DNA of 32,139 nucleotides from Bacteroidota bacterium (GTDB lineage: Bacteria > Bacteroidota > Ignavibacteria > Kapaibacteriales > UBA2268), in contig JAKAKE010000195.1 in the NCBI GenBank assembly GCA_021824625.1, positions 1-32,139 of the forward strand, given 5' to 3'. Below are positions 4,782 to 26,418 of the stretch, piece by piece. A program made the translations under genes and the position numbers. How positions within the stretch are numbered: the stretch's first letter is position 1; every line of letters starts with the position of its first letter. The notes beneath the pieces are model-generated. The model made no database searches, was not told where the DNA came from, and saw only the letters and a program-made list of their open reading frames with translations.

Positions 4782-5444
4782 TCAAAAATACCTGTCATCT
4801 TTCCAATTTTTCGGATTTGTTCTGATGTAATTCCGAATAGTGAAATATTCTTCTTTATATCGGATTATATGTTCATAATAATTTCGCTGCCATACCGTTT
4901 TTGTTGATGTATTCTGACGAAACCATTTTGTTGCACCGATTTTAAAACCGCGAATTATTGCACCTAATGATTTGGGTATTATGTGCTGGTATTTATTGCG
5001 TTGAATATTTAATTTTTTAAATGGTTCAATATCATTTTGATTTTTCATTTGGTTATGTAGGGGTTCAAAATTTTGAACCCCTACAATGTTTGAACCAAAA
5101 TTTTCAATATTACCAAATTCGTTATCCATAACGTCATTTTGACGGGGTTCAAAATTTTGAACCCCTACATTATTTTTATTTTGAATTTTTATTATTCCGT
5201 GAATGTGGTTGGGCATAATAACAACGGGACCTAATTTGACATCAGGATAATGTTTTGTAATATCATACCAACATTTTTTTACGAATTTTCCGGCATCATT
5301 TAATACCATTTTATCATCAATAATTTCACCAAACAAATGGTCTTTGTAGAATGTACAAATCGTTATAAAATAATATCCGGAGCGGGAATAGTCATATTCT
5401 CTGAAACGGAGCGATTTTCTATGGAATTTTCCAGAGATAATAAT
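4782..5444 (-). CDS. REP-associated (IS200-like, HUH) tyrosine transposase; start codon doubtful
   Basis: Single-stranded-DNA transposase of the Y1/RAYT family. Counting upstream of the TTG at 5336, the frame still encodes typical family sequence (GKFHRKSLRFREYDYS, then GYYFITICTFYKDHLFGEI), so the protein begins near 5444. The HUH metal motif is MPNHIHGI and the nucleophilic tyrosine is in NYYEHIIR. The family ending YIRTNPKNWKDDRYF is intact. No ATG, GTG or TTG lies in this frame above 5336: the only ATG (5449-5447), directly after the stop of the neighbouring barrel gene, is one base out of frame. Two palindromes inside the middle of the gene each encode VGVQNFEP. It could start at ATT (5444) or be inactivated by loss of one A. 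Convergent with the glycohydrolase gene, 10 bases away. Confidence 0.82.
   Translation of the reverse strand: MIISGKFHRKSLRFREYDYSRSGYYFITICTFYKDHLFGEIIDDKMVLNDAGKFVKKCWYDITKHYPDVKLGPVVIMPNHIHGIIKIQNKNNVGVQNFEPRQNDVMDNEFGNIENFGSNIVGVQNFEPLHNQMKNQNDIEPFKKLNIQRNKYQHIIPKSLGAIIRGFKIGATKWFRQNTSTKTVWQRNYYEHIIRYKEEYFTIRNYIRTNPKNWKDDRYF
5056..5085. repeat. Perfect 30-nt palindrome inside the transposase gene (copy 1)
   Basis: The half-site tgtaggggttcaaaa is followed directly by its exact reverse complement, giving a 30-base perfect palindrome with no loop. It lies in frame in the transposase and encodes VGVQNFEPL on the minus strand. Confidence 0.95.
5144..5165. repeat. Perfect 22-nt palindrome inside the transposase gene (copy 2)
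   Basis: Half-site ggggttcaaaa plus its reverse complement. One side continues as ctaca like copy 1; the other side has changed to gac. It again encodes VGVQNFEP in the transposase frame, 80-odd bases from copy 1. Confidence 0.95.
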
Positions 5445-5449
5445 TTCAT

Positions 5450-8332
5450 TTAATCATGTCTGTGTCCCGGTGGTCCGAATGGCATTTGTGGCTGCATTCC
5501 TCCGAAAGCACGCAAATTATATGTGAATGTCAACATTATATATTGCTGTAGAATTTTGTTTTGTGAATATTCTATGTAATAATCAGTAATATTGGTTTGT
5601 ATGCTTTTATTTTGTTTCAGGGCATCGAAAACAGTCAGCTTGATTTCTCCTGCATTATTTGTAAATAATTTTTTTCCAATGCCGAGATTCAATAAAGTGA
5701 AATTATTATTATTCTCCTGTACCAAGCCTGTATAGAACTGGTTTCTCAAATCAACATTAAAGAAGACACCTTCCCAGATAATCCATTGAAAGTTTAAGCT
5801 GTTTGTATAGTAATTGTAATTATTGTCGAGCTCCTCCCTGATTGAATTTTTTGTAATAGCAAAATTTCCCCTGGATGATAATGTAAAATCAAGGTCCTCG
5901 CTGATATTACTTGTCAAAACAATCTGAAGATTTGTATTATATGCATTTAAGAAGTTTGTAATATTATTTACAAGGCTTGGTGTCCTCGAATAGGAGCCGC
6001 CAAGATTCAGATTCATTTTCGATTTAATCAAATTTATCGGGAATCCATATGTAAAGAATGAAGATATATTCATTGATGCTCCAAGATTAACCGGTTTGGT
6101 CAATTGACCTCCTGCCGGTAGAATGATTCCTCTTTCAAGTGTAGTATCTTGTGTCGCTATGAATGTTGAATTTGCTATAGTATTCGTCCTGTAATTGAAT
6201 GATGTAAATCCCAGAATAACATTGTTGAAATCCGCACTGAAGCTTGAAAAACGCCCCATCAGGAAATGCGAATATTGCTGTTCCAATGCCGGATTGCCGG
6301 TTGATAACTGCATTGGATTACTTACATCAATTACATTTTGCAACTGAGAAATCGAAGGTGAATTTGTTGATGTTCTGTAAAAAATATTCAAATTATCAGT
6401 TTTTGAGAACTTGTATGTTAATCGCATCGAGGGCAAAATATTATCAAATTTATAATTCATAGAAAGGCTATGAGGAAAATCCTGCAAGCTGTTTAATTCT
6501 GCTCTCTGGTATGCCAAACCGGCAGTGAAATTCATTTCATCGGATTTTAATCTATATGATAATTCTGGTCTTTGAGTAAAATAATAATTATCAAATTTAT
6601 TTGATAGCATAGTATCTAATATATCATAGTCAATACTTTCAGGATTAAAATCATAAGTCCGCTTATCGGAATTATTCAAATTATAATTAGCATTATAACT
6701 GAACTGCAATTGCTGATTATCTGCCAAAGGTTCGGTGTAACTTATGTTCCCCGACAATCCGTATCCGCCGACGGGTGATATTGATTTTTGATTCAAAGTA
6801 TCATAAGTTGTCTGGTTCATCTTATTATACATACTCTCGGTCAACTGATTCCCTGAACCGTTTTTATCGTTAAGACCGGTATTTAAACTTATTGAAAAAG
6901 TTCTACCTTTGGTTTCAAATTTATGTCTATAGAGAAGTTCATTTGAAAAATTTAATCCCTCATAGCTTGATTTATAAAGATTATCAGAAGTATTTAGGGG
7001 ATTACCGTCACTTAGTAAATATTCGCTCAACTGGTTATTGTCAACATTGCTTGCCTGTACTGTTAAATAGGGCCTTAATATAATTGAATTGTTCGTATCA
7101 ATATCGTATTTCAGTCGAAAATTAAATCTGTGATTGTTATTCTTATTATAAGAATCAGTATTTTGATTATAATAGCTCAGTGAATCACTTATTAATGTGT
7201 ACTCACGATTAAGTGTCTGGTCATTCCTGTTTTCGGTATAATTAAAAAAATAGCTTCCTGAAAATTCAATATCTTCACTCCAGTCATCGGAATAATTAAT
7301 CCCAAATGCATGTGTGGAGCTGATTCCATCCATTTGCCCGACCATAAAATCTCCAATACCTGACTGGCTCAGCATTCTTGATTCACCTCCCCCCGGCCTG
7401 AATCCTCCCGGGCCGCCGCCTCTGAATGCCATCCTTAAAAATTGCCCTCTCTGTCCGCCGCCGCCTGCCATATCGAGGATATCCATTATTGAAAAATTCT
7501 GTTGACTGATATTGTTGCTTATTCCCATCATTGAGATTCGCTGTGCATTATCGAATATGTTCAGGTTTAGTGATGCGATATATTTATCCTGATGACCATA
7601 TCCACCGCTGAATTTTCCGAATGTTCCGCTTCTTTTGTTATTCTTTGTGATAATATTCATTGTCTTCGAACTTTGCCCGTCGTCGAATCCGGTAAATTCG
7701 GCTTGTTCGCTCATTTTATCATAAATTTGGACTTTATCAATAACATCAGCAGGTAAGTTTCTTAATGATAAAGTTGGGTCATCTCCAAAGAATTGCTTTC
7801 CGTCAACAAGAACTTTCTTTACTTCTTCTCCCTGAGCTTTAACTTTGCCGTCGCTTTCGACTTGCACTCCGGGAAGTTTTTTGACCAGGTCTTCGGCATT
7901 TGCGTCAGGAAGTGTTTTAATACTGTTTGCATTAAAAATTGTGGTATCTTCCTTCTGCTCTCCGATGGGTGCATTGGCTGTTACATCAACCTCATCTGTT
8001 GTTATATTTGTTTGTGATACAAACAAATTTCCAAGTTTGATATCTTTATCTTTAACAATTATCTTTTTTTCAATATCCCGGTATCCAACATAAGTTATCT
8101 TGAGTGTATATTCACCTTGCTTCACTTCTTTAATTTCAAATTCGCCCTTTATGTTGGTCAGGTCGTGATATTTTGTTTCTTTATTCTTATCATTCAACAC
8201 AACAGTGGCACTTATCATGGGTGATTTTGAAATGCTGTCGAGTGCTTTTCCTGTAATTACTACGTTTTGTGCTATAACAAAATTGAAAAGGGAAATAAAA
8301 GTGGATATAACAAGAAAAATCTTTTTATTCAT
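5450..8332 (-). CDS. TonB-receptor-like outer-membrane beta-barrel protein
   Basis: A 960-residue outer-membrane protein. Residues 1-21 are a signal peptide ending FVIA before QNVVITGK. About 22-110 is a carboxypeptidase-D regulatory-like domain (ITGKALDSISKSPMISATVV, with the typical GEYTLKITYVGYR). About 125-240 is a plug-like domain (LPDANAEDLVKKLPGVQVE, VLVDGKQFFGDDPT). The rest is a long barrel of the OMP_b-brl_3 type, rich in Asn, Tyr and Ser. A Gly-rich loop near residues 288-318 (GGGGQRG, FRGGGPGGF) and a His-rich end (GPPGHRHD) stand out. No TonB box is obvious. Such proteins are common in the FCB group, where the ligand is usually unknown. It is a single gene: a 94-base gap with a hairpin separates it from the RNA methylase upstream. 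Confidence 0.87.
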   Translation of the reverse strand: MNKKIFLVISTFISLFNFVIAQNVVITGKALDSISKSPMISATVVLNDKNKETKYHDLTNIKGEFEIKEVKQGEYTLKITYVGYRDIEKKIIVKDKDIKLGNLFVSQTNITTDEVDVTANAPIGEQKEDTTIFNANSIKTLPDANAEDLVKKLPGVQVESDGKVKAQGEEVKKVLVDGKQFFGDDPTLSLRNLPADVIDKVQIYDKMSEQAEFTGFDDGQSSKTMNIITKNNKRSGTFGKFSGGYGHQDKYIASLNLNIFDNAQRISMMGISNNISQQNFSIMDILDMAGGGGQRGQFLRMAFRGGGPGGFRPGGGESRMLSQSGIGDFMVGQMDGISSTHAFGINYSDDWSEDIEFSGSYFFNYTENRNDQTLNREYTLISDSLSYYNQNTDSYNKNNNHRFNFRLKYDIDTNNSIILRPYLTVQASNVDNNQLSEYLLSDGNPLNTSDNLYKSSYEGLNFSNELLYRHKFETKGRTFSISLNTGLNDKNGSGNQLTESMYNKMNQTTYDTLNQKSISPVGGYGLSGNISYTEPLADNQQLQFSYNANYNLNNSDKRTYDFNPESIDYDILDTMLSNKFDNYYFTQRPELSYRLKSDEMNFTAGLAYQRAELNSLQDFPHSLSMNYKFDNILPSMRLTYKFSKTDNLNIFYRTSTNSPSISQLQNVIDVSNPMQLSTGNPALEQQYSHFLMGRFSSFSADFNNVILGFTSFNYRTNTIANSTFIATQDTTLERGIILPAGGQLTKPVNLGASMNISSFFTYGFPINLIKSKMNLNLGGSYSRTPSLVNNITNFLNAYNTNLQIVLTSNISEDLDFTLSSRGNFAITKNSIREELDNNYNYYTNSLNFQWIIWEGVFFNVDLRNQFYTGLVQENNNNFTLLNLGIGKKLFTNNAGEIKLTVFDALKQNKSIQTNITDYYIEYSQNKILQQYIMLTFTYNLRAFGGMQPQMPFGPPGHRHD

Positions 8333-8966: not shown

Positions 8967-9079
8967 AAAATTAGTGATATTAGTATCAATAGCAATAAAT
9001 ATAAATCGTCAACAAAAATGTTAATTAAATAGTCGTATTCTGCTAAATTACGAAAATGGTTTTTAAGGCAGATAATCAC

Positions 9080-11470
9080 ATGAGAAAAATTAATACCATC
9101 TTTAAATATATTATTTGTTTCTTTTTGATTTCCTCATCTGCCCCGGCGTTTGATTTGGACACAAAAGGAAAAGATTTCTGGCTGACATTCCTTCCAAATT
9201 TTCATAACAATAAAAACAAAGCCGATGACCGTCTCAGGCTGGGTGATTCTCTCTATATTTTTATTACATCAGATGAACCGACAAATGGCATCATTGAATA
9301 CATTGATTTGCTGGGTAATAAATATGACAAGAATTTTTCAATAACTGACACTTCGGAAATTTATATCTTTAAAGTATGTTATTTGGATTATGAGTTGTTG
9401 GGGCATAATGACAGTGGTTTATTAAATTCAAGGAATAACAGTGAAAATGTCAAGAAGCAATATTTTCATGTAACGTCAGAAAAAGAGATAACCGTTTATG
9501 CTCATAGCCAGGCTAACAAATCGAGTGATGCCTGTATTGTTTTGCCAAGTGACATACTTGGTAAAGACTATTTTGTCATGTCGTATAAAAGCGACGGTGA
9601 ATATGGAATTGTCCTTGACGGAAGCTCTACACCATCACAGTTTGTAATTTTAGGAACTCAGGAAAATACGAGTGTTGTCATCATTCCTTCCGATGAAACC
9701 CAGTATAATGGCAAAAGAACTCAGACAATAATACTAAATAGTGGTGATGCATACCTTGTGCAGGCAAATATTGAACAAGGCAAATTAAACACCGACCTTA
9801 CCGGAACAGAGATTCATTCCGATAAACCTGTTGCTGTTTTTGCAGGACATCAAAGGTCTCATTTGCCTGTAACGACAAGTATTCAGAATCCATCCCGTGA
9901 CATTCTTTTTGAACAAATGCCTCCAATTGAAACTTGGGGAAAAAATGCTTTATTGGTCCCTTACGTTCAACCGGCAGGCATAACCAATCAGGGAACTGAC
10001 CTTTTCAGGGTACTTTCTGCATATAATAACACTGACATTTATATTAATGGGGTATTGATTGACAGGCTTAACAAAGGTGAGTTTTATGAAGGACAGCTCG
10101 TTGAACCGGGACTTGTAGAAGCTTCGGCACCGGTGCTTATTGCTCAATTTAAGAAAACATCCGGGATAGGAACAAATATGGGAGACCCATTCGAAATGCT
10201 TATACCTCCCATCGGGCAATTCATGAATTTCTACAGAGTAATCAATACACAGTCTTTTGAATATAATGAAAGAGGCTATTATCAGAAAGCTTATTCATTG
10301 CAGTATATAACCGTTGTGGCACCAAATTCAGTTGTAAATAGTGTTTTCCTGGATGGCAGCGCAATACCCGGTAATAGATTTATTAATATTCCTGCATCAA
10401 CCTTTTCTTATGCTAATGTTTCTGTTACAGATGGTGTACACACTATATCTTCTAATGAAAAAATAGGTGTTTATGTGTATGGATACGGTGCGGCTAATTC
10501 TTATGGATATGTTGGCGGAATGTATCTTCGTGCATTAGATTTTCAGCCGCCCTCGATTGTTGGTGAAGATAGCTGCACATCTGTTTTGGGTATGGTTTAT
10601 GATACATTAATTGCAGATTCCAAAATAAAAAAAGTAACTTCTCCGGCTGAATCACAGAAAAATGTCCTTGTAAGTATTGAAAATTTTATACCTTATAAAA
10701 ATGCTGTAAGCTTCAAGGCAGAATTAGTTGATTACCTTAAGGATGGAGAATTCGAAATCGAGGCAACAGATTCAATGGGTTTTATAACAAAACAAAAATT
10801 TACTATTCATGGTTTCACAGTCGAATTTCCCGGGCTAACCTCAAAAAAACCTTCGATTATGTTTGACAGTACCATAATTGGAAACCTGAATTGTGATTCC
10901 GTTGAAATTAAAAACACAGGAGTTATACCCTTAAGCTTTGACAATAACATATACTTAAAAAATAATAATATTTTTTCAATTCCTGTTTCGCAATTACCTT
11001 TAATTATTCAGCCGGGCGAATCAAAAATGCTGAAATTATGCTTTAGTCCCCGAATTGTTAAAAATACCAGGTATGTGGATACACTGTTTTTAGTTTATAA
11101 TTGTATTCCTTTGAAAATCGTATTGGAAGGAATAGCCAAGCCGAGAATAGAAGAAGCCAATTCAACTTGTAATATTCCCTTAAAATTAAGCGTTGTGAAT
11201 CTACCCGGAAATAATTATCTCAGGCAAAATTTTCCCAATCCGGCTTCGGATAAAACAATTATCGGGTTCGGAAATTCTGCGACAGGATTTGTTTCTTTGA
11301 AGGTTTATGATTTATTCGGAAACCTGAGAATGACTGTTTTTAATGAGGAATTAAAACAGGGGGTATATGAAGTTCAAATTAACATTGGAAATCTTGAACA
11401 GGGTCTGTATTTTTACTCTTTAATTACCGGAAAAAATATTTTATCGAAAACAATGTTGATCAGAAAATAA
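9080..11470 (+). CDS. Type IX secreted surface protein, IgGFc-binding-like (paralog 1)
   Basis: A secreted protein of about 796 residues. I choose the ATG at 9080, because MRKINTIFKYIICFFLIS is then a direct signal peptide; the frame opens eight codons earlier at 9056. From DTKGKDFWLTFLPNF to ANSYGYVGGMYLR (about residues 25-480) it resembles the N-terminal part of IgGFc-binding-protein-like families. A region built of ATDSMGF, GFTVEFPG, IKNTGVIPLSF and LKLCFSP segments (immunoglobulin-like or choice-of-anchor-like) follows. The last 85 residues are a type A T9SS sorting domain: NFPNPASDKTIIGF, then LKVYDLFGNLR and the ending SKTMLIRK. It should cross the outer membrane and be anchored on the surface. 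A longer paralog follows directly. Function is probably adhesion or surface coating, which is inference. Confidence 0.78.
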   Translation: MRKINTIFKYIICFFLISSSAPAFDLDTKGKDFWLTFLPNFHNNKNKADDRLRLGDSLYIFITSDEPTNGIIEYIDLLGNKYDKNFSITDTSEIYIFKVCYLDYELLGHNDSGLLNSRNNSENVKKQYFHVTSEKEITVYAHSQANKSSDACIVLPSDILGKDYFVMSYKSDGEYGIVLDGSSTPSQFVILGTQENTSVVIIPSDETQYNGKRTQTIILNSGDAYLVQANIEQGKLNTDLTGTEIHSDKPVAVFAGHQRSHLPVTTSIQNPSRDILFEQMPPIETWGKNALLVPYVQPAGITNQGTDLFRVLSAYNNTDIYINGVLIDRLNKGEFYEGQLVEPGLVEASAPVLIAQFKKTSGIGTNMGDPFEMLIPPIGQFMNFYRVINTQSFEYNERGYYQKAYSLQYITVVAPNSVVNSVFLDGSAIPGNRFINIPASTFSYANVSVTDGVHTISSNEKIGVYVYGYGAANSYGYVGGMYLRALDFQPPSIVGEDSCTSVLGMVYDTLIADSKIKKVTSPAESQKNVLVSIENFIPYKNAVSFKAELVDYLKDGEFEIEATDSMGFITKQKFTIHGFTVEFPGLTSKKPSIMFDSTIIGNLNCDSVEIKNTGVIPLSFDNNIYLKNNNIFSIPVSQLPLIIQPGESKMLKLCFSPRIVKNTRYVDTLFLVYNCIPLKIVLEGIAKPRIEEANSTCNIPLKLSVVNLPGNNYLRQNFPNPASDKTIIGFGNSATGFVSLKVYDLFGNLRMTVFNEELKQGVYEVQINIGNLEQGLYFYSLITGKNILSKTMLIRK

Positions 11471-11628
11471 ATTTCAATAATTATTAAAATAACAAAGAGA
11501 ATCGTACAATAATTAATCATTAATTGAGTTTACAGTTCCAAAAGAAAAATCTGATTTATTCATTCAAAAATAGTTCAATTGTTGATTTTATTTGGCAGCA
11601 AATTATGGCAACAGAACATACTAATCGG

Positions 11629-14600
11629 ATGAAATTAAATTTCATAATTTTATTAATATTATTTCTGACTGTTTATTCCAATTTAACAGCCCAGCCTGAT
11701 ACTGCCAATTTCGACACAAGAGGGAATGATTTTTGGCTTGTTTTTCCACCAAATTTTCATAATGGTAAGAACAATCAGTCTGTATATTATGACGATTCAT
11801 TATATATTTTTATCACTGCCGATAAACCGACAACCGGTGTAATTGAATATCATGACCTAAGGGGAAGAACATTTACAAGAGATTTTACTATTCCTGACCC
11901 AACGAAAATTTATACATTTTCAATTTTTTATAATGACTTGGAATTGCTCGGCTATAATGATAATAGCGGTGTTTTAATTAATCGCAATAACAGTGAAGTT
12001 GTTACAAAACAATATTTCCATATAACGACAAATAATGAAGTAACAGTTTACGCACACAACCAGGCTAATACTACCAGTGATGCATGTCTTGTTCTTCCGA
12101 CAGACATACTTGGTAAAGATTATTTTATCCTGTCATATAATAGTGATGGTGAAATTGATTTATTTTATGATGATTTATCTGATAATTGTACACCATCACA
12201 ATTTGTTATTCTTGCAACAGAGGATAGTACTATTATTTCAATCATCCCCAAAGAAGAAACTCAATATAATAATCGAAATATTCAAAATATAACTTTAAAC
12301 AAGGGTGATGCTTATCTGGTACAGGCACGGATAAGAAGAACGAGCCTCAGAACGGATTTAACCGGCAGTGAGGTTCATTCTGACAAACCTGTTGCCATTT
12401 TTGCCGGACATCAACGTTCAACAATACCTAATGAAAATAGGGGCAGTAATCCATCAAGAGATTATTTAATAGAACAAATGCCGCCTGTTAAAACCTGGGG
12501 ACAAAATGCTCTTTTGATTCCTTACCAACAACCGTATGGTGTTTCTCTACTAAGAAACGATATATACAGAATACTTTCAGGTAACGATAATACAGAAATA
12601 TTTATAAATGATATTTCTATCGGAATTTTGAACAAAGGTGAATTTTTTGAGGGACCGCTTACTAATCCCGCTCATGTAAGGGCTAGTGCTTCTATTCTTG
12701 TTGCACAATTTAAAAAGACTTCTAATTATTCTGCTACAAGCAATGATTATTCAGGTGACCCATTTGAGATGCTGATTCCACCTGTTGAACAATTCATGAC
12801 AAATTACAGGGTAATCAATACACAAGCATACCAAACCAGTAATTCAGAAAAAGTTTATGATGAACAATATATAATAATTGTAGCAACAGATTTATCAATG
12901 GCATCTGTTCTGCTTGACGGAAATCCCATACAGTTTAGTTATTTCAAGCCAATTCCAACGACAAATTATTTCTATGCAAATGTTCGGGTTAGCGACGGAG
13001 TCCATTCTATTAGTTGTAATGATAAAATCGGAGTATATGTTTATGGTTATGGCTATGCAAATTCTTATGGCTATGTTGGTGGTATGAGCATGAAGCCTTA
13101 TGATTATACACCCCCGCAAATTACCTCCCTCGATACATGTTATTCTGTGAAAGGTACAATTGCAGATACACTTGTTTCGGACTCAAAGATATCAACCATA
13201 ATATCTCCTGTTGAAAGCCAGGTAAATGTTAATGTAAAAATTGACAATTTCAATCCTTATGCCGGAATTGTTAATTTCAGTACTAAACTCAATAATTTTT
13301 ATGAGGACGGAGAATTTGAACTCATAGCAACTGATTCTATGGGATTGTATTCTTCCAAAAAATTCGAGATTCCCGGTTTTACATTATCCGTTTTAAATTT
13401 CAGGAATGGTACTAAACTCCCGGAGCATAGTCGGTTTTACAGAATCAAGAAGGAGTTTTGCTATCCGGTAGTAATAGAAAACTATGGGAAACATAAGCAG
13501 AATATCAATAGTCTGATTTTAAAAAACAGCAGTAATTTTCGAATTGTTTATAATACTCCAAAATCATTGAATCCGGGTCAAATTGACACAGCATTGATAT
13601 GCTTTAGTTCGCCTGTTGACACAAATTTCATAGATACATTATCAATTATCGGAGATTGCGGCATAAGGAAAATACAGGCTTTCAACATTACATTCAGAGG
13701 TGACACAAGCAAACCCGATGTACAGGTAAATGTTGACCCATGCAACAAAATAACAAACCTGACAATTTCAGATTCAACGATTATTGATTTTGGAATGTCT
13801 TCTGTTGACATAATTGATACTGTAAATTGTTTAGTTACAATCGAAAAATATTTACCTAAATATGAAACTGTAAAAATTGAAGTGATTGACCAATATAAGG
13901 ATGCTATTTATCATCTCTCTGCAACTGATTCGGCGGGATTCGTAACTGACATAATTGATACGATACAAGGATTCACGATAGCATTTCCTGGTATCAATGC
14001 CGGTTCAAAGATGTTTGAAATTGACAGTACAACTATTGGTGACTTAAATTGTAAAACATTGAGAATCAGCAATACAGGTTTGCTTCCCATAACATTTGAT
14101 TACAATATGTATTTAAGATTGAATATTATTTATTCTTTACCATTAAGTCAATTGCCATTTACTATCAATCCGGGTACCTCAGAACTGTTAGAAATATGTT
14201 TCAGCCCGGTATTTGCAAGCGAATTCCCTCAAAACGATACTTTGGTATTTGAATTTAACTGCTTGTTTATGAAAATACCTTTGACAGGTATTGGTAAAAA
14301 AATAATCTTGATATCCGGGGGAGAATCTGTGGGGTGCAATACACCAATCAGATTTATAATAGATGAATTGCCCGGATATAATTTCCTTGAACAGAGTTAT
14401 CCAAACCCATCATCAGATTATTCAACTATAAGATTTGGTATAGCAAACGAAACAGTTGCTTCAATAATGATTTATGATTTATACGGTAAGTTAAGAGCTA
14501 CTGTGTTTTCTGAGAATTTAACGCCGGGAATATTTGAGGTAAAAATTAATACCGGCAAACTTGAACAAGGTATTTATGTTTACTCGTTAGTAACAGAAAA

Positions 14601-14637
14601 TTCGATTTTATCTAAAAAAATGATAATAAGAAAATAA
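11629..14637 (+). CDS. Type IX secreted surface protein, IgGFc-binding-like (paralog 2)
   Basis: A tandem paralog of the preceding gene, about 1002 residues from the ATG at 11629, which starts a clean signal peptide (MKLNFIILLILFLTVYSN, cut near TAQ). Another ATG at 11605 and a TTG at 11524 are in frame. The N-terminal half aligns throughout with paralog 1: FDTRGNDFWLVFPPNFHN, DILGKDYFILSYNSDGE, DKPVAIFAGHQRS, GDPFEMLIPP and ANSYGYVGGM. It then has two rather than one ATDS-x-G(L/F) plus CFSP repeat units, which explains about 200 extra residues. The T9SS domain at the end is QSYPNPSSDYSTIRFG, MIYDLYGKLRA, SKKMIIRK. The 158-base spacer from paralog 1 has no clear terminator, so the two may be co-transcribed. 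Confidence 0.78.
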   Translation: MKLNFIILLILFLTVYSNLTAQPDTANFDTRGNDFWLVFPPNFHNGKNNQSVYYDDSLYIFITADKPTTGVIEYHDLRGRTFTRDFTIPDPTKIYTFSIFYNDLELLGYNDNSGVLINRNNSEVVTKQYFHITTNNEVTVYAHNQANTTSDACLVLPTDILGKDYFILSYNSDGEIDLFYDDLSDNCTPSQFVILATEDSTIISIIPKEETQYNNRNIQNITLNKGDAYLVQARIRRTSLRTDLTGSEVHSDKPVAIFAGHQRSTIPNENRGSNPSRDYLIEQMPPVKTWGQNALLIPYQQPYGVSLLRNDIYRILSGNDNTEIFINDISIGILNKGEFFEGPLTNPAHVRASASILVAQFKKTSNYSATSNDYSGDPFEMLIPPVEQFMTNYRVINTQAYQTSNSEKVYDEQYIIIVATDLSMASVLLDGNPIQFSYFKPIPTTNYFYANVRVSDGVHSISCNDKIGVYVYGYGYANSYGYVGGMSMKPYDYTPPQITSLDTCYSVKGTIADTLVSDSKISTIISPVESQVNVNVKIDNFNPYAGIVNFSTKLNNFYEDGEFELIATDSMGLYSSKKFEIPGFTLSVLNFRNGTKLPEHSRFYRIKKEFCYPVVIENYGKHKQNINSLILKNSSNFRIVYNTPKSLNPGQIDTALICFSSPVDTNFIDTLSIIGDCGIRKIQAFNITFRGDTSKPDVQVNVDPCNKITNLTISDSTIIDFGMSSVDIIDTVNCLVTIEKYLPKYETVKIEVIDQYKDAIYHLSATDSAGFVTDIIDTIQGFTIAFPGINAGSKMFEIDSTTIGDLNCKTLRISNTGLLPITFDYNMYLRLNIIYSLPLSQLPFTINPGTSELLEICFSPVFASEFPQNDTLVFEFNCLFMKIPLTGIGKKIILISGGESVGCNTPIRFIIDELPGYNFLEQSYPNPSSDYSTIRFGIANETVASIMIYDLYGKLRATVFSENLTPGIFEVKINTGKLEQGIYVYSLVTENSILSKKMIIRK

Positions 14638-22030: not shown

Positions 22031-22912
22031 ATGGCTGGTAAAACAAGATTTCAAATTTCAAAAAAGGATATTATTAACCTTTTTGAAACAAAAGGGAAAA
22101 ATATTTATTCATTTAGTGATTTGATTCAAATTCTAGATGATAACAGAGAATTTTGGAGGCTCCCCAAGAGACTTACGGGGAAATTATTTATTGACCTTCT
22201 TTTGAAAAACACAAAGTTAAATAACCACATCATCCAATTTCCTAATAATAAATTTATTAAATATACTTGGGTGCCTGTTTCAATATTTAAATTAATATTA
22301 AGTATAAATTCAAAAGCTTATTTATCTCATTATTCCGCAATGCAAATTCACAGTTTAACTGAACAGATTCCTAAATCAATTTATATAAATATTGAACAAT
22401 CAAATAAATCACAAATTAGTAATAAATTGATATTACAAGACAGAATAAAATTTGCCTTTTCAAGAAATCAAAGAACAACAAAAAACATAGCAAATTTTCA
22501 TGATTTTAAAATATATCTTTTAAACGGAAAATATACTGAAAACTTAGGAGTAATTGAACATCAGTATGAAACAAATGAAATTATCAGAGTTACTGATATT
22601 GAAAGAACCTTGATTGATATTATTGTGAGACCAAATTATTCAGGTGGAATTTTCGAAGTGTTGAAAGCTTATCAAAATGCTTATTATAAAGTTTCAATTA
22701 ATAAATTATGTTCTTATTTAAAAAAAATAAATTTTATTTATCCTTATCACCAAATTATTGGTTTTTTATTGGATAAGACCAAACTTTACAAAGAGAATCA
22801 AATTAATCTTCTAAAGCAATTTGAAATAAAATATGATTTTTTTCTTACTTATGGAGCCAAGGATTTAGAATATTCAAAAGAATGGAGATTATTTTATCCC
22901 AAGGGATTCTAA
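22031..22912 (+). CDS. AbiEi-type antitoxin/transcriptional regulator
   Basis: A 293-residue protein resembling type IV toxin-antitoxin AbiEi antitoxins. The N-terminal about 80 residues look like a winged-helix region (KKDIINLFETKGKNIYSFSD, then WRLPKRLTGKLFIDLLL). The middle holds AYLSHYSAMQIHSLTEQIPKS, and the C-terminal domain has VTDIERTLIDIIVRPNYSGG and the ending YSKEWRLFYPKGF. AbiEi proteins counter AbiEii toxins and repress their own promoter by binding paired inverted repeats, which matches the palindromes upstream. Oddly, the toxin-like gene is not downstream on the same strand: it faces this gene and overlaps its last 24 bases. The gene is very AT-rich and was probably acquired. 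Confidence 0.76.
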   Translation: MAGKTRFQISKKDIINLFETKGKNIYSFSDLIQILDDNREFWRLPKRLTGKLFIDLLLKNTKLNNHIIQFPNNKFIKYTWVPVSIFKLILSINSKAYLSHYSAMQIHSLTEQIPKSIYINIEQSNKSQISNKLILQDRIKFAFSRNQRTTKNIANFHDFKIYLLNGKYTENLGVIEHQYETNEIIRVTDIERTLIDIIVRPNYSGGIFEVLKAYQNAYYKVSINKLCSYLKKINFIYPYHQIIGFLLDKTKLYKENQINLLKQFEIKYDFFLTYGAKDLEYSKEWRLFYPKGF

Positions 22913-23773
22913 AATTTTTTCTGCTAATTCTACTGTGTACTCAAAATAAAACTCAAAATCTTTTAAACCCTCCTTATATGTTACAGTATCTATTAAAGAT
23001 GGATATTCAGCCCGATGCAATTCTTTGGTATCTTTAATTTTTTTCAGATAATGATATGGTACCTTTTTTGAATCAAAAATTGCTTTCAATAAATCTAAAT
23101 TATCTTCGGAAGTTAAATTTATTTTAGAATAATCTGATAAAATATAAATATCAAAAAAATCTCTTGCTCTTGATTTTCTTGAAATTGTTTTAATTATTGA
23201 CTTGTAATCTTCCACTTGCTGACAAATCGCTCTTAATTTTTCGATAATAATCATTTCGGGTGTATAAACATAAATTGTATAACCTTCTAAATCCATTCGT
23301 TGTTTTGAACTGCAGAATTCAAATTTGCTAATTTCAATTGAATACCTTGTTGATAAATTTTTTCCTAATGGGATTGCATTTCTTCTTAATGCATCAATGT
23401 TGTCCTTTCTTTTATCATATTCAATTTCTGCTAGTAATTTAAATTCTATTTCATAACCTCCCCAAAATGATTTTACTGTTTCATCCAATTTTTCTGGTCT
23501 TTGTTGAAATTTATAATCAAAAAGAATAAATCCTTCTTTTTTAAATCCATCTTTTAATAATTCTTTAATTTTAACTTTAATAATATTAAGTTCATCTTCT
23601 TTAAAATCATCTTGTATTGAAAAATCTAAATCAATGGAAGCCCGTGATGAAAGATGGTATATTATATTTATAGCATTACCTCCTTTTAGAACTAATCTAT
23701 CCATCAATTCATCATCAGATATTAATGCAATAATTGCAGTTTTCTTTACTTTATCTAAAAAATTTAGATCCAT
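22889..23773 (-). CDS. AbiEii/AbiGii-family nucleotidyltransferase (toxin)
   Basis: A 294-residue member of the AbiEii-type nucleotidyltransferases, toxins that add nucleotides to tRNA or similar targets. The catalytic signature is complete near the N-terminus: LVLKGGNAINIIYHLSSRASIDLDFSI has the KGG loop and the metal-binding D-x-D. The downstream family segments are YTPEMIIIEKLRAI and KSRARDFFDIYILSDY. Family knowledge says that the gene normally lies directly after abiEi on the same strand; here it is convergent, with 24 bases of overlap. It is the last of five leftward genes starting at 26418, 42 bases after the lipoprotein gene, and so could share their transcript. Confidence 0.86.
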   Translation of the reverse strand: MDLNFLDKVKKTAIIALISDDELMDRLVLKGGNAINIIYHLSSRASIDLDFSIQDDFKEDELNIIKVKIKELLKDGFKKEGFILFDYKFQQRPEKLDETVKSFWGGYEIEFKLLAEIEYDKRKDNIDALRRNAIPLGKNLSTRYSIEISKFEFCSSKQRMDLEGYTIYVYTPEMIIIEKLRAICQQVEDYKSIIKTISRKSRARDFFDIYILSDYSKINLTSEDNLDLLKAIFDSKKVPYHYLKKIKDTKELHRAEYPSLIDTVTYKEGLKDFEFYFEYTVELAEKILESLGIK

Positions 23774-25777: not shown

Positions 25778-26137
25778 TCAAACAATCTCAATACAATTCT
25801 GTGCTGTTGCTATAATTTCTTCAAGTTCCTTACTCTCATTTCCTAACTTATTTACAATTCTTTCATCAGAAATACACCTTATCTGATAGCAGTTCACAGC
25901 ACTTTTAACATTCAATCCATTATGCTTGTTAGGCACAAGTTTATACAGCCACCAAATTTTTTCAAAATCATTTTTCCATGTTATGATGGGTGCTACTATT
26001 TTCAAATCCAAACCAACTGCGAAATTTCCATTAATTATAATAGCAGGTCTGATTTTTTTTATTTCATCACCTAGAGTTGGATTGAAATCTACAAGACAAA
26101 TATCACCTTGAAAAGCATTTATTGATTTGGGTTTCAT
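25778..26137 (-). CDS. MazF/PemK-family toxin (mRNA interferase)
   Basis: A 119-residue type II toxin of the MazF/PemK family, ribonucleases that cut mRNA. The signature FQGDICLVDFNPTLGDEIKKIRPAIII is at the N-terminus, with the usual GDI, P and RPAIII elements. A family-like hydrophobic strand (DLKIVAPIITW) follows near the middle, and the region LNVKSAVNCYQIRCISDERI is the usual C-terminal strand pair. The start codon overlaps the antitoxin stop as ATGA, which is typical of translational coupling. Residue-by-residue catalytic identity cannot be checked here. Cognate partner: the ribbon-helix-helix gene directly upstream. Confidence 0.86.
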   Translation of the reverse strand: MKPKSINAFQGDICLVDFNPTLGDEIKKIRPAIIINGNFAVGLDLKIVAPIITWKNDFEKIWWLYKLVPNKHNGLNVKSAVNCYQIRCISDERIVNKLGNESKELEEIIATAQNCIEIV

Positions 26138-26418
26138 TCTATCCCATCATCAATTTCATCAACAAATAATTCTTTTTTGTACTTATTATAATATGGCATT
26201 GATTCATTAGTCATTTGCTTTAGGAGAGCTGACCTGATTTCCTTAGGAAGTTTCCTTATATCTTTTGCACTTAGTTTTCTTGAATTAAGTTCTTTGTCAA
26301 CAAGTTCTTTTACCAATCTGGAAACCGGTTTATTGTCAATTGTTGACAATAGGTTGAATTTTGCTTTTTCCTCTTTTGTAACTCTAATCGCTATCATTGA
26401 TGAATTTATAGTTTGCAT
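26134..26418 (-). CDS. Ribbon-helix-helix antitoxin of the MazF module
   Basis: A 94-residue protein with an N-terminal ribbon-helix-helix pattern: beta strand SSMIAIRVTKEE (6-17), helix A KAKFNLLSTIDN, turn and helix B PVSRLVKELVDKELN to about residue 46. RHH proteins dimerise and bind repeated DNA boxes. The C-terminal half (KDIRKLPKEIRSALLKQMT, then YNKYKKELFVDEIDDGIE) is acidic at the end, as in toxin-wrapping tails. It precedes mazF by a 4-base overlap, which supports its role as antitoxin and operon repressor. Four tandem 8-bp boxes lie 17-48 bases before the start. It does not match a named antitoxin family that I recognise with confidence. Confidence 0.76.
   Translation of the reverse strand: MQTINSSMIAIRVTKEEKAKFNLLSTIDNKPVSRLVKELVDKELNSRKLSAKDIRKLPKEIRSALLKQMTNESMPYYNKYKKELFVDEIDDGIE

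Follow-up and report, generated by a model that had tools for sequence, protein, structure and literature searches.

The window, which comprises the whole stretch of DNA analysed (32,139 nucleotides), encodes a RAYT/TnpA-REP-like Y1 HUH transposase on its minus strand. The open frame of 223 codons (4785–5453, stop codon at 4782–4784) was identified by its translation, family profiles and fold match, and its product has the HUH motif, the single catalytic tyrosine and the Y1 fold of this enzyme type. The HUH motif NHIH (residues 82–85, 5199–5210, minus strand) was located in the translation and in an alignment of 37 RAYT sequences, in which N82 and H83 are nearly invariant and H85 is invariant. 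The presumed catalytic tyrosine Y209 (YIRTNP, 4827–4829, minus strand) occupies a column that is invariant among the same 37 sequences. Scores were below the respective cut-offs for both Pfam Y1_Tnp (E 2.8e-4, 21.4 bits, cut-off 23) and NCBIfam REP_Tyr_transpos (E 7.2e-12, 45.4 bits, cut-off 80). Among the solved structures compared, the AlphaFold model of the protein (mean pLDDT 75.6) matched best to 4er8, in which E. coli TnpA-REP is bound to a REP hairpin (Z 13.6, rmsd 2.5, 127 residues; Foldseek E 4.9e-6), and had a Z of about 12 to the IS608 transposase. No ATG, GTG or TTG precedes the first conserved motif of the frame (first TTG at 5336). In view of this lack of a canonical start, the gene may be damaged at its 5' end and decayed, possibly inactive, or may use an unusual start. 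It is the single transposase of this kind in its genome, with no further homologue at E 0.001. Elsewhere in the window, two long adjacent paralogous genes (9056–14637) are 71–78% alike at the DNA level over seven blocks, and gene pairs at 22031–23773 and 25778–26418 resemble toxin–antitoxin modules, which we take to be AbiEi/AbiEii-like and MazF-like.

Two palindromes are part of the transposase coding sequence between NHIH and Y209. The first (5056–5085, TGTAGGGGTTCAAAATTTTGAACCCCTACA) is a perfect 30-bp, double-foot REP-like palindrome (GTAG...CTAC) that encodes IVGVQNFEPLH, and the second (5144–5165) has a perfect 22-bp core that encodes GVQNFEP and an altered left foot. A 28-mer matched positions 5057–5084 without mismatch, which a flanking T/A extends to the perfect 30-mer, and positions 5141–5168 with two mismatches; VGVQNFEP is encoded by both copies on the minus strand in the frame of 4785–5453. 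The original prediction had placed two in-frame copies 80-odd bases apart within 5056–5165, and these coordinates are correct, with a start-to-start distance of 84 bases; sequence and translation likewise confirmed the perfect 30-base copy, the shared VGVQNFEP and the site between HUH motif and tyrosine. A chance origin of the palindrome was rejected, as there were no matches in 100 dinucleotide shuffles of the window and none to the reversed pattern in the genome. Both copies are located in a linker (residues 97–139, 5037–5165, minus strand) that is predicted to be disordered in the AlphaFold model (pLDDT <50). Helix alphaC (residues 163–181, 4911–4967, minus strand) is a candidate palindrome reader, as suggested by the AlphaFold model, by covariation with palindrome type and by its counterpart in a weak alignment, alpha3 of E. 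coli TnpA-REP.

As described in the main-text parts of Quentin et al. 2018 (PMC6006769), a unique feature of TnpA-REP subclass 2.4 is that REPs are inserted in frame within the tnpA-REP gene itself, as a rule between HuH and Y. This subclass corresponds to Bertels group 4, occurs in Bacteroidetes, Cyanobacteria and other phyla, and has double-foot REPs (GT[AG]G and C[TC]AC). The link between this enzyme family and REP palindromes had been anticipated correctly and is published there for subclass 2.4. The window gene shares with this subclass the in-frame REP between HuH and Y, the double foot, and the NH[IFV]H (NHIH) and WQ (VWQRN) motifs. Its Y motif, YIRTNP, is one residue off the YIxNNP of subclass 2.4, which is also the majority form among the 37 aligned sequences, and, unlike in the published description, it has no flanking REP of its type in the window. 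Membership in the subclass 2.4 kind, as assigned by motifs and the in-frame REP, is the best explanation of the gene. A REPtron consists of a RAYT gene with REPs on both sides in inverted orientation (in the part of PMC2817692 consulted). We did not class the window RAYT as such, because no additional palindrome copies were found elsewhere in the 32-kb window at up to 3 mismatches.

Dispersal of the palindrome within and beyond the genome

The palindrome core is dispersed over 22 places in the 3.58-Mb genome (up to 3 mismatches; reversed-pattern control 0), which bears out the expectation of further genomic copies. Sixteen of these places were examined for gene context, and eight are in frame within long genes. 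The transposase and pyruvate kinase hold two each, in tandem in the latter, and a single copy is present in each of four further genes: those for an OmpA-family protein, a DUF3108 protein and an esterase carrying a secretion tail, and a 423-codon frame whose tail is similar (Pfam names were assigned to the pyruvate kinase, OmpA, DUF3108 and esterase carriers). Of the other eight places, one precedes the likely start of a long frame, and the rest are in short frames or outside any frame of >60 codons. The same genome also has four places of the CAATTCATGAATTG type plus GGGGTACAAAATCTTGTACCCC variants, for which no matching RAYT was found.

The tandem pair in pyruvate kinase is present in the window genome and in the congener G051, where it is decayed, while the pyruvate kinase of the congener G053 has one copy. 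A clean empty insertion site in pyruvate kinase was found in the congener G052 and in the more distant G001 and G003, all without copies; the pyruvate kinase search gave no match in G002 and G010. These sequence differences among congeners indicate that a housekeeping gene acquired in-frame palindromes within the genus, and that the copies have since decayed there. Both palindrome copies of the transposase are common to the window genome and G051. Rickettsia palindromic elements are likewise palindromes inserted in frame in protein genes. The likeness to them that had been proposed is one of behaviour, and of behaviour only.

These elements are cited by Di Nocera et al. 2013 (PMC3733652), in the consulted part of which GTAG REPs are described as 20–40 bp palindromes tagged GTAG, with copies in unrelated ORFs and some genes hit twice. 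The window palindrome has the length of GTAG REPs (20–40 bp), GTAG at one end and a dispersed, low-copy distribution; it differs from the published cases in its mere 22 places, in having a foot at both ends and in that the enzyme gene is itself a carrier. Since in-frame tnpA-REP REPs and intragenic GTAG REPs are already published (PMC6006769 and PMC3733652, as far as the consulted parts of both go), the window feature is of a known kind, to which our analysis adds the alphaC link, the codon evidence and the mosaic genes described below.

In one-per-species genomes, the exact 22-mer occurs in at least 117 stretches with at least 124 copies. The 80 record titles listed include Ignavibacteria, Bacteroidetes, Deltaproteobacteria, Nitrospirae, Zixibacteria, KSB1, Chloroflexi, Planctomycetes, WOR-3, Parcubacteria, Peregrinibacteria and Gracilibacteraceae, although individual records may be misbinned because these are mostly metagenome-assembled genomes. 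Six stretches (L208–L213) of four viral-collection contigs also contain the 22-mer. RAYT relatives on plasmids (three records) and phages (one record) are distant (<60% identity). Within frames of at least 150 codons, all 39 rows translate the 22-mer as GVQNFEP or a closely similar peptide; several of these rows repeat a gene. The constant phase was rejected as an independent sign of selection, since it is largely forced by an intact GTAG foot, which puts TAG or TGA in the other two frames. Relative to Pfam matches in 20 non-RAYT proteins, the insert is inside a match in eight (for example in alanyl-tRNA synthetase, phosphoglycerate mutase and an M50 protease). In three proteins it separates two matched domains (pyruvate kinase, biotin ligase and asparagine synthase), in eight it is outside the matches, and one protein had no match.

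Linker palindromes of RAYT relatives

Transposase matches were obtained in 27 of the 54 genomes of the family (E 0.001), in 27 of 67 genomes of a second family (E 1e-10) and in 160 of the 395 genomes of a phylum sample (E 1e-8). The relatives analysed are full-length RAYTs from a part of these matches, from which 2 of 116 RAYTs in the first set and 2 of 152 in the larger set were excluded because they failed to align through HUH and alphaC. A linker palindrome was detected in 83/106 full-length protein-search RAYTs of the first set and in 112/142 of the enlarged set, with 30/142 having none at the threshold used, and, as expected, in 8/8 RAYTs that were found through the palindrome. This threshold made no demand for GC-rich arms, which drops the TTCAAAA type. 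The 114 RAYTs of the first set have 120 linker palindromes versus 2.3 in shuffles, and 10 versus 8.1 in conserved domains three times longer than the linker. In 93/120 RAYTs the palindrome has a GT[AG]G or C[TC]AC foot close by. The palindromes themselves vary widely (TTCAAAATTTTGAA, CAATTCATGAATTG, CACGGCATGCCGTG, CGGGTTnnGAACCCG, GACAGGTC and others). Two linkers (L194 and L215) are enlarged by long runs of short repeated peptides (NANANVQL-like ones in a 402-codon frame, and GVGGMNDG).

Palindromes are conserved in these linkers as DNA and not as peptide, as judged by codon usage. Inside palindromes, identical residues are encoded by the same codon at a rate of 0.882 (587 codons, 84 RAYT pairs), compared with 0.488 in the bodies of the same 84 pairs and 0.490 in linker peptides that are shared but not part of a palindrome; palindrome codons are more conserved than the body in 80/84 pairs. 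The pairs were protein-search RAYTs with a body identity of ≤0.75 that share a five-residue peptide inside palindromes. We confined the test to protein-search RAYTs because a version with 13 RAYTs, 8 of them fetched by exact palindrome, was partly circular.

These results bear on the possibility that VGVQNFEP is an ancestral, low-complexity protein feature of the family in which the palindrome is incidental. VGVQNFEP or a near variant is present in 13/150 RAYT linkers, as such an origin would allow. Many unrelated peptides from other palindromes at the same place, the conservation of palindrome codons far beyond the rest of the gene, and the presence of the same palindrome in unrelated genes contradict it, and we regard it as extremely improbable. 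That the segment is not just ancestral protein sequence, a point on which the original prediction hinged, follows from the different palindromes that RAYT relatives bear at this position.

Palindrome type and helix alphaC

Palindrome types, which were set by palindrome similarity alone, covary with the sequence of alphaC: RGxKIGVTKW is found with TTCAAAATTTTGAA, PKIIGwyKMN with CAATTCATGAATTG, EIvRQFKTFSA with CGGGTTnnGAACCCG and irSfKSAVTK with CACGGCATGCCGTG. We compared 146 same-type with 4702 different-type pairs among 120 RAYTs, matched at a far-body identity of 0.45–0.65, a matching that corrects for relatedness only in part. The identity excess of same-type pairs was +0.30 to +0.35 in columns 84–109, which are mostly 3' of the palindromes and extend through alphaC, +0.19 close to the end of alphaB (columns 54–61), +0.13 in the N-terminal columns 0–7, +0.11 to +0.12 in columns 114–127, and only +0.07 in columns 78–85, mostly just 5' of the palindromes. 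For alphaC the excess was 0.314 versus a maximum of 0.055 in 1000 label shuffles, which ignore relatedness, and in a first set of 91 RAYTs it was 0.294 versus a shuffle maximum of 0.093. With neighbours of body identity >0.75 excluded, the nearest neighbour by alphaC has the same palindrome type in 45.9/83 cases, versus 19/83 by far body and 3.5 at random. Sequence comparison thus shows the adjacent alphaC to be a better predictor of palindrome type than the far body, with alphaC predictions being wrong in about 45%. Type and alphaC do not pair one to one: in L163 and L181 a TTCAAAA palindrome is combined with another alphaC (RAYKSAVT), and in at least five RAYTs (L038, L229, L234, L214 and L226) an RGFKIG alphaC resembling that of the TTCAAAA type occurs together with other palindromes.

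Palindrome types are clustered on a body tree calculated without linker and alphaC, and require 31 changes (minimum 13, shuffled mean 47.9, 0/200 shuffles as low); the tree is poorly resolved (16/88 inner branches starred). These 31 changes suggest that types have moved between lineages. In E. coli TnpA-REP, according to the consulted part of PMC8266576, alpha3 is the DNA-binding helix and K82 contacts a base of the REP bulge. This protein is the top fold match of the window RAYT and its alpha3 corresponds to alphaC; a weak alignment (E 0.19), consistent with the fold match, puts K82 on K176 of alphaC. The two systems differ: the REPs of E. coli contain a bulge and are imperfect as palindromes, and protein identity is 22% over the aligned part.

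Covariation with alphaC also bears on control at the level of RNA or translation, by which a hairpin in the mRNA, or RAYT bound to it, would damp transposase synthesis. A strong mRNA hairpin would be expected from the perfect 30-bp palindrome, and the DNA-level conservation would fit an RNA hairpin equally. A hairpin alone demands pairing and not a type-specific sequence tied to alphaC, and these palindromes also occur scattered between genes and within unrelated ones; we therefore consider RNA control quite improbable.

Exchange of the central part of the gene is suggested by tandem RAYT paralogues in G060, which belong to an array of at least three RAYT matches (G060:C2:2300669–2302050; L231, L355) with two genes mosaic in the middle. 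Their DNA identity is 0.93–1.00 over the first 120 columns, 0.38–0.73 in the middle and 0.87–0.97 from column 390, and they differ in both palindrome (CAATTCATGAATTG versus CGGGTTCTGAACCC) and alphaC (LLPKIIGYFKMN versus GLPEIIRQFKTFS). A similar, less sharp pattern was seen between L291 (G107) and L274 (G079), with 0.87–0.93 over the first 60 columns, 0.36–0.87 in between and 0.83–0.97 from column 390, and with palindromes that are partly alike. L029 and L190 (G010) differ over the entire gene. For RAYT pairs that are identical to at least 0.70 at both ends, alphaC identity is 0.93 in 19 same-type pairs versus 0.56 in 25 different-type pairs, of which three (L334 with L274, L310 and L311) are misfiled, since their shared palindrome is hidden by masked bases. 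Another 7 of the 51 both-ends-similar pairs are in neither class owing to intermediate palindrome similarity. As the differing segment also takes in the HUH strand and the end of alphaB, exchange may concern the entire middle of the gene.

Co-occurrence of palindrome types and RAYTs in genomes is suggestive of the same link, and is partly circular because the RAYT itself supplies one copy. The genomes of CAATTCATGAATTG-type RAYTs (G060, G079, G092, G099, G211 and G369) all hold a CAATTCATGAATTG palindrome (6/6), compared with 30/395 genomes of the sample. Arms fit the pattern in 8 of the 13 CACGGCATGCCGTG-type RAYTs and the genomes of all eight hold the palindrome (sample 42/395); the other five have variant arms, with no match in G078, G123, G174 and G305, and G046 is outside the sample. 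Only some RAYTs of the genomes counted were fetched. G024 has 14 double-foot palindromes and G021 has 29 places of the CAATTCATGAATTG type, yet both are without a RAYT hit.

We interpret the window gene as a RAYT that probably carries its cognate REP in frame in a disordered linker, beside the helix that reads this REP, and give this reading a probability of roughly 0.7. Helix alphaC would read the palindrome hairpin, and the enzyme would nick single-stranded palindromes at the GTAG foot and copy or move them to new sites, where copies within genes would persist if the frame stays open. The linker copy would keep the cognate target physically joined to the reading helix, and transfer or recombination of the gene, or of its central part, would let enzyme specificity and substrate travel together. 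The sequences show insertion, dispersal, conservation at the DNA level and covariation, and for the window enzyme we infer recognition, nicking and spread of the palindrome. The earlier proposal that the gene carries its own substrate is accordingly supported in part: covariation and codon conservation suggest a cognate palindrome, whereas its cleavage is presumed.

Alternatively, the internal copies could be idle bystanders, as REPs may land anywhere, a disordered linker is tolerant, and an enzyme that is nascent or close by may act preferentially on its own gene. Because linker and alphaC adjoin, their link could then reflect joint inheritance of one central block without recognition. The predicted disorder of the linker, the copies inside or between domains of unrelated enzymes and the differing segment in G060, which spans the end of alphaB, the HUH motif, the linker and alphaC together, are all compatible with this. 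So are the 500-base flanks of the 114 RAYTs, which are palindrome-rich too (160 palindromes versus 15 expected, in 69/114 genes). Idle copies would not be expected to keep their codons between RAYTs with different bodies (0.882 versus 0.488), while those in pyruvate kinase decayed within a genus, and a single inherited block fits poorly with an identity excess that is high 3' (columns 84–109) and low just 5' (columns 78–85) of the palindromes. We consider bystander insertion rather unlikely.

The reading of a RAYT with its cognate REP beside the reading helix can be extended, tentatively and at somewhat less than even odds, to a swappable specificity cassette. Linker palindrome and adjacent reading helix would be exchanged jointly between otherwise different transposases, so that each gene would be a natural enzyme–substrate pair able to cross phyla as a unit. 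The alphaC–palindrome link, the codon conservation and the mosaics were not found in the literature searched, which included main-text parts of PMC6006769 and PMC8266576. No study of palindrome choice by RAYTs of this subclass was found there either; the consulted part of PMC8266576 reports tests of three TnpA-REPs, which belong to two other groups. Provided that every gene of the subclass carries its cognate palindrome beside the reading helix, many natural enzyme–substrate pairs could be read directly from genomes. The hairpin-recognition code of a single-strand nuclease would then become testable, and the arrangement would explain how a REP type keeps its enzyme as genes move between distant bacteria.
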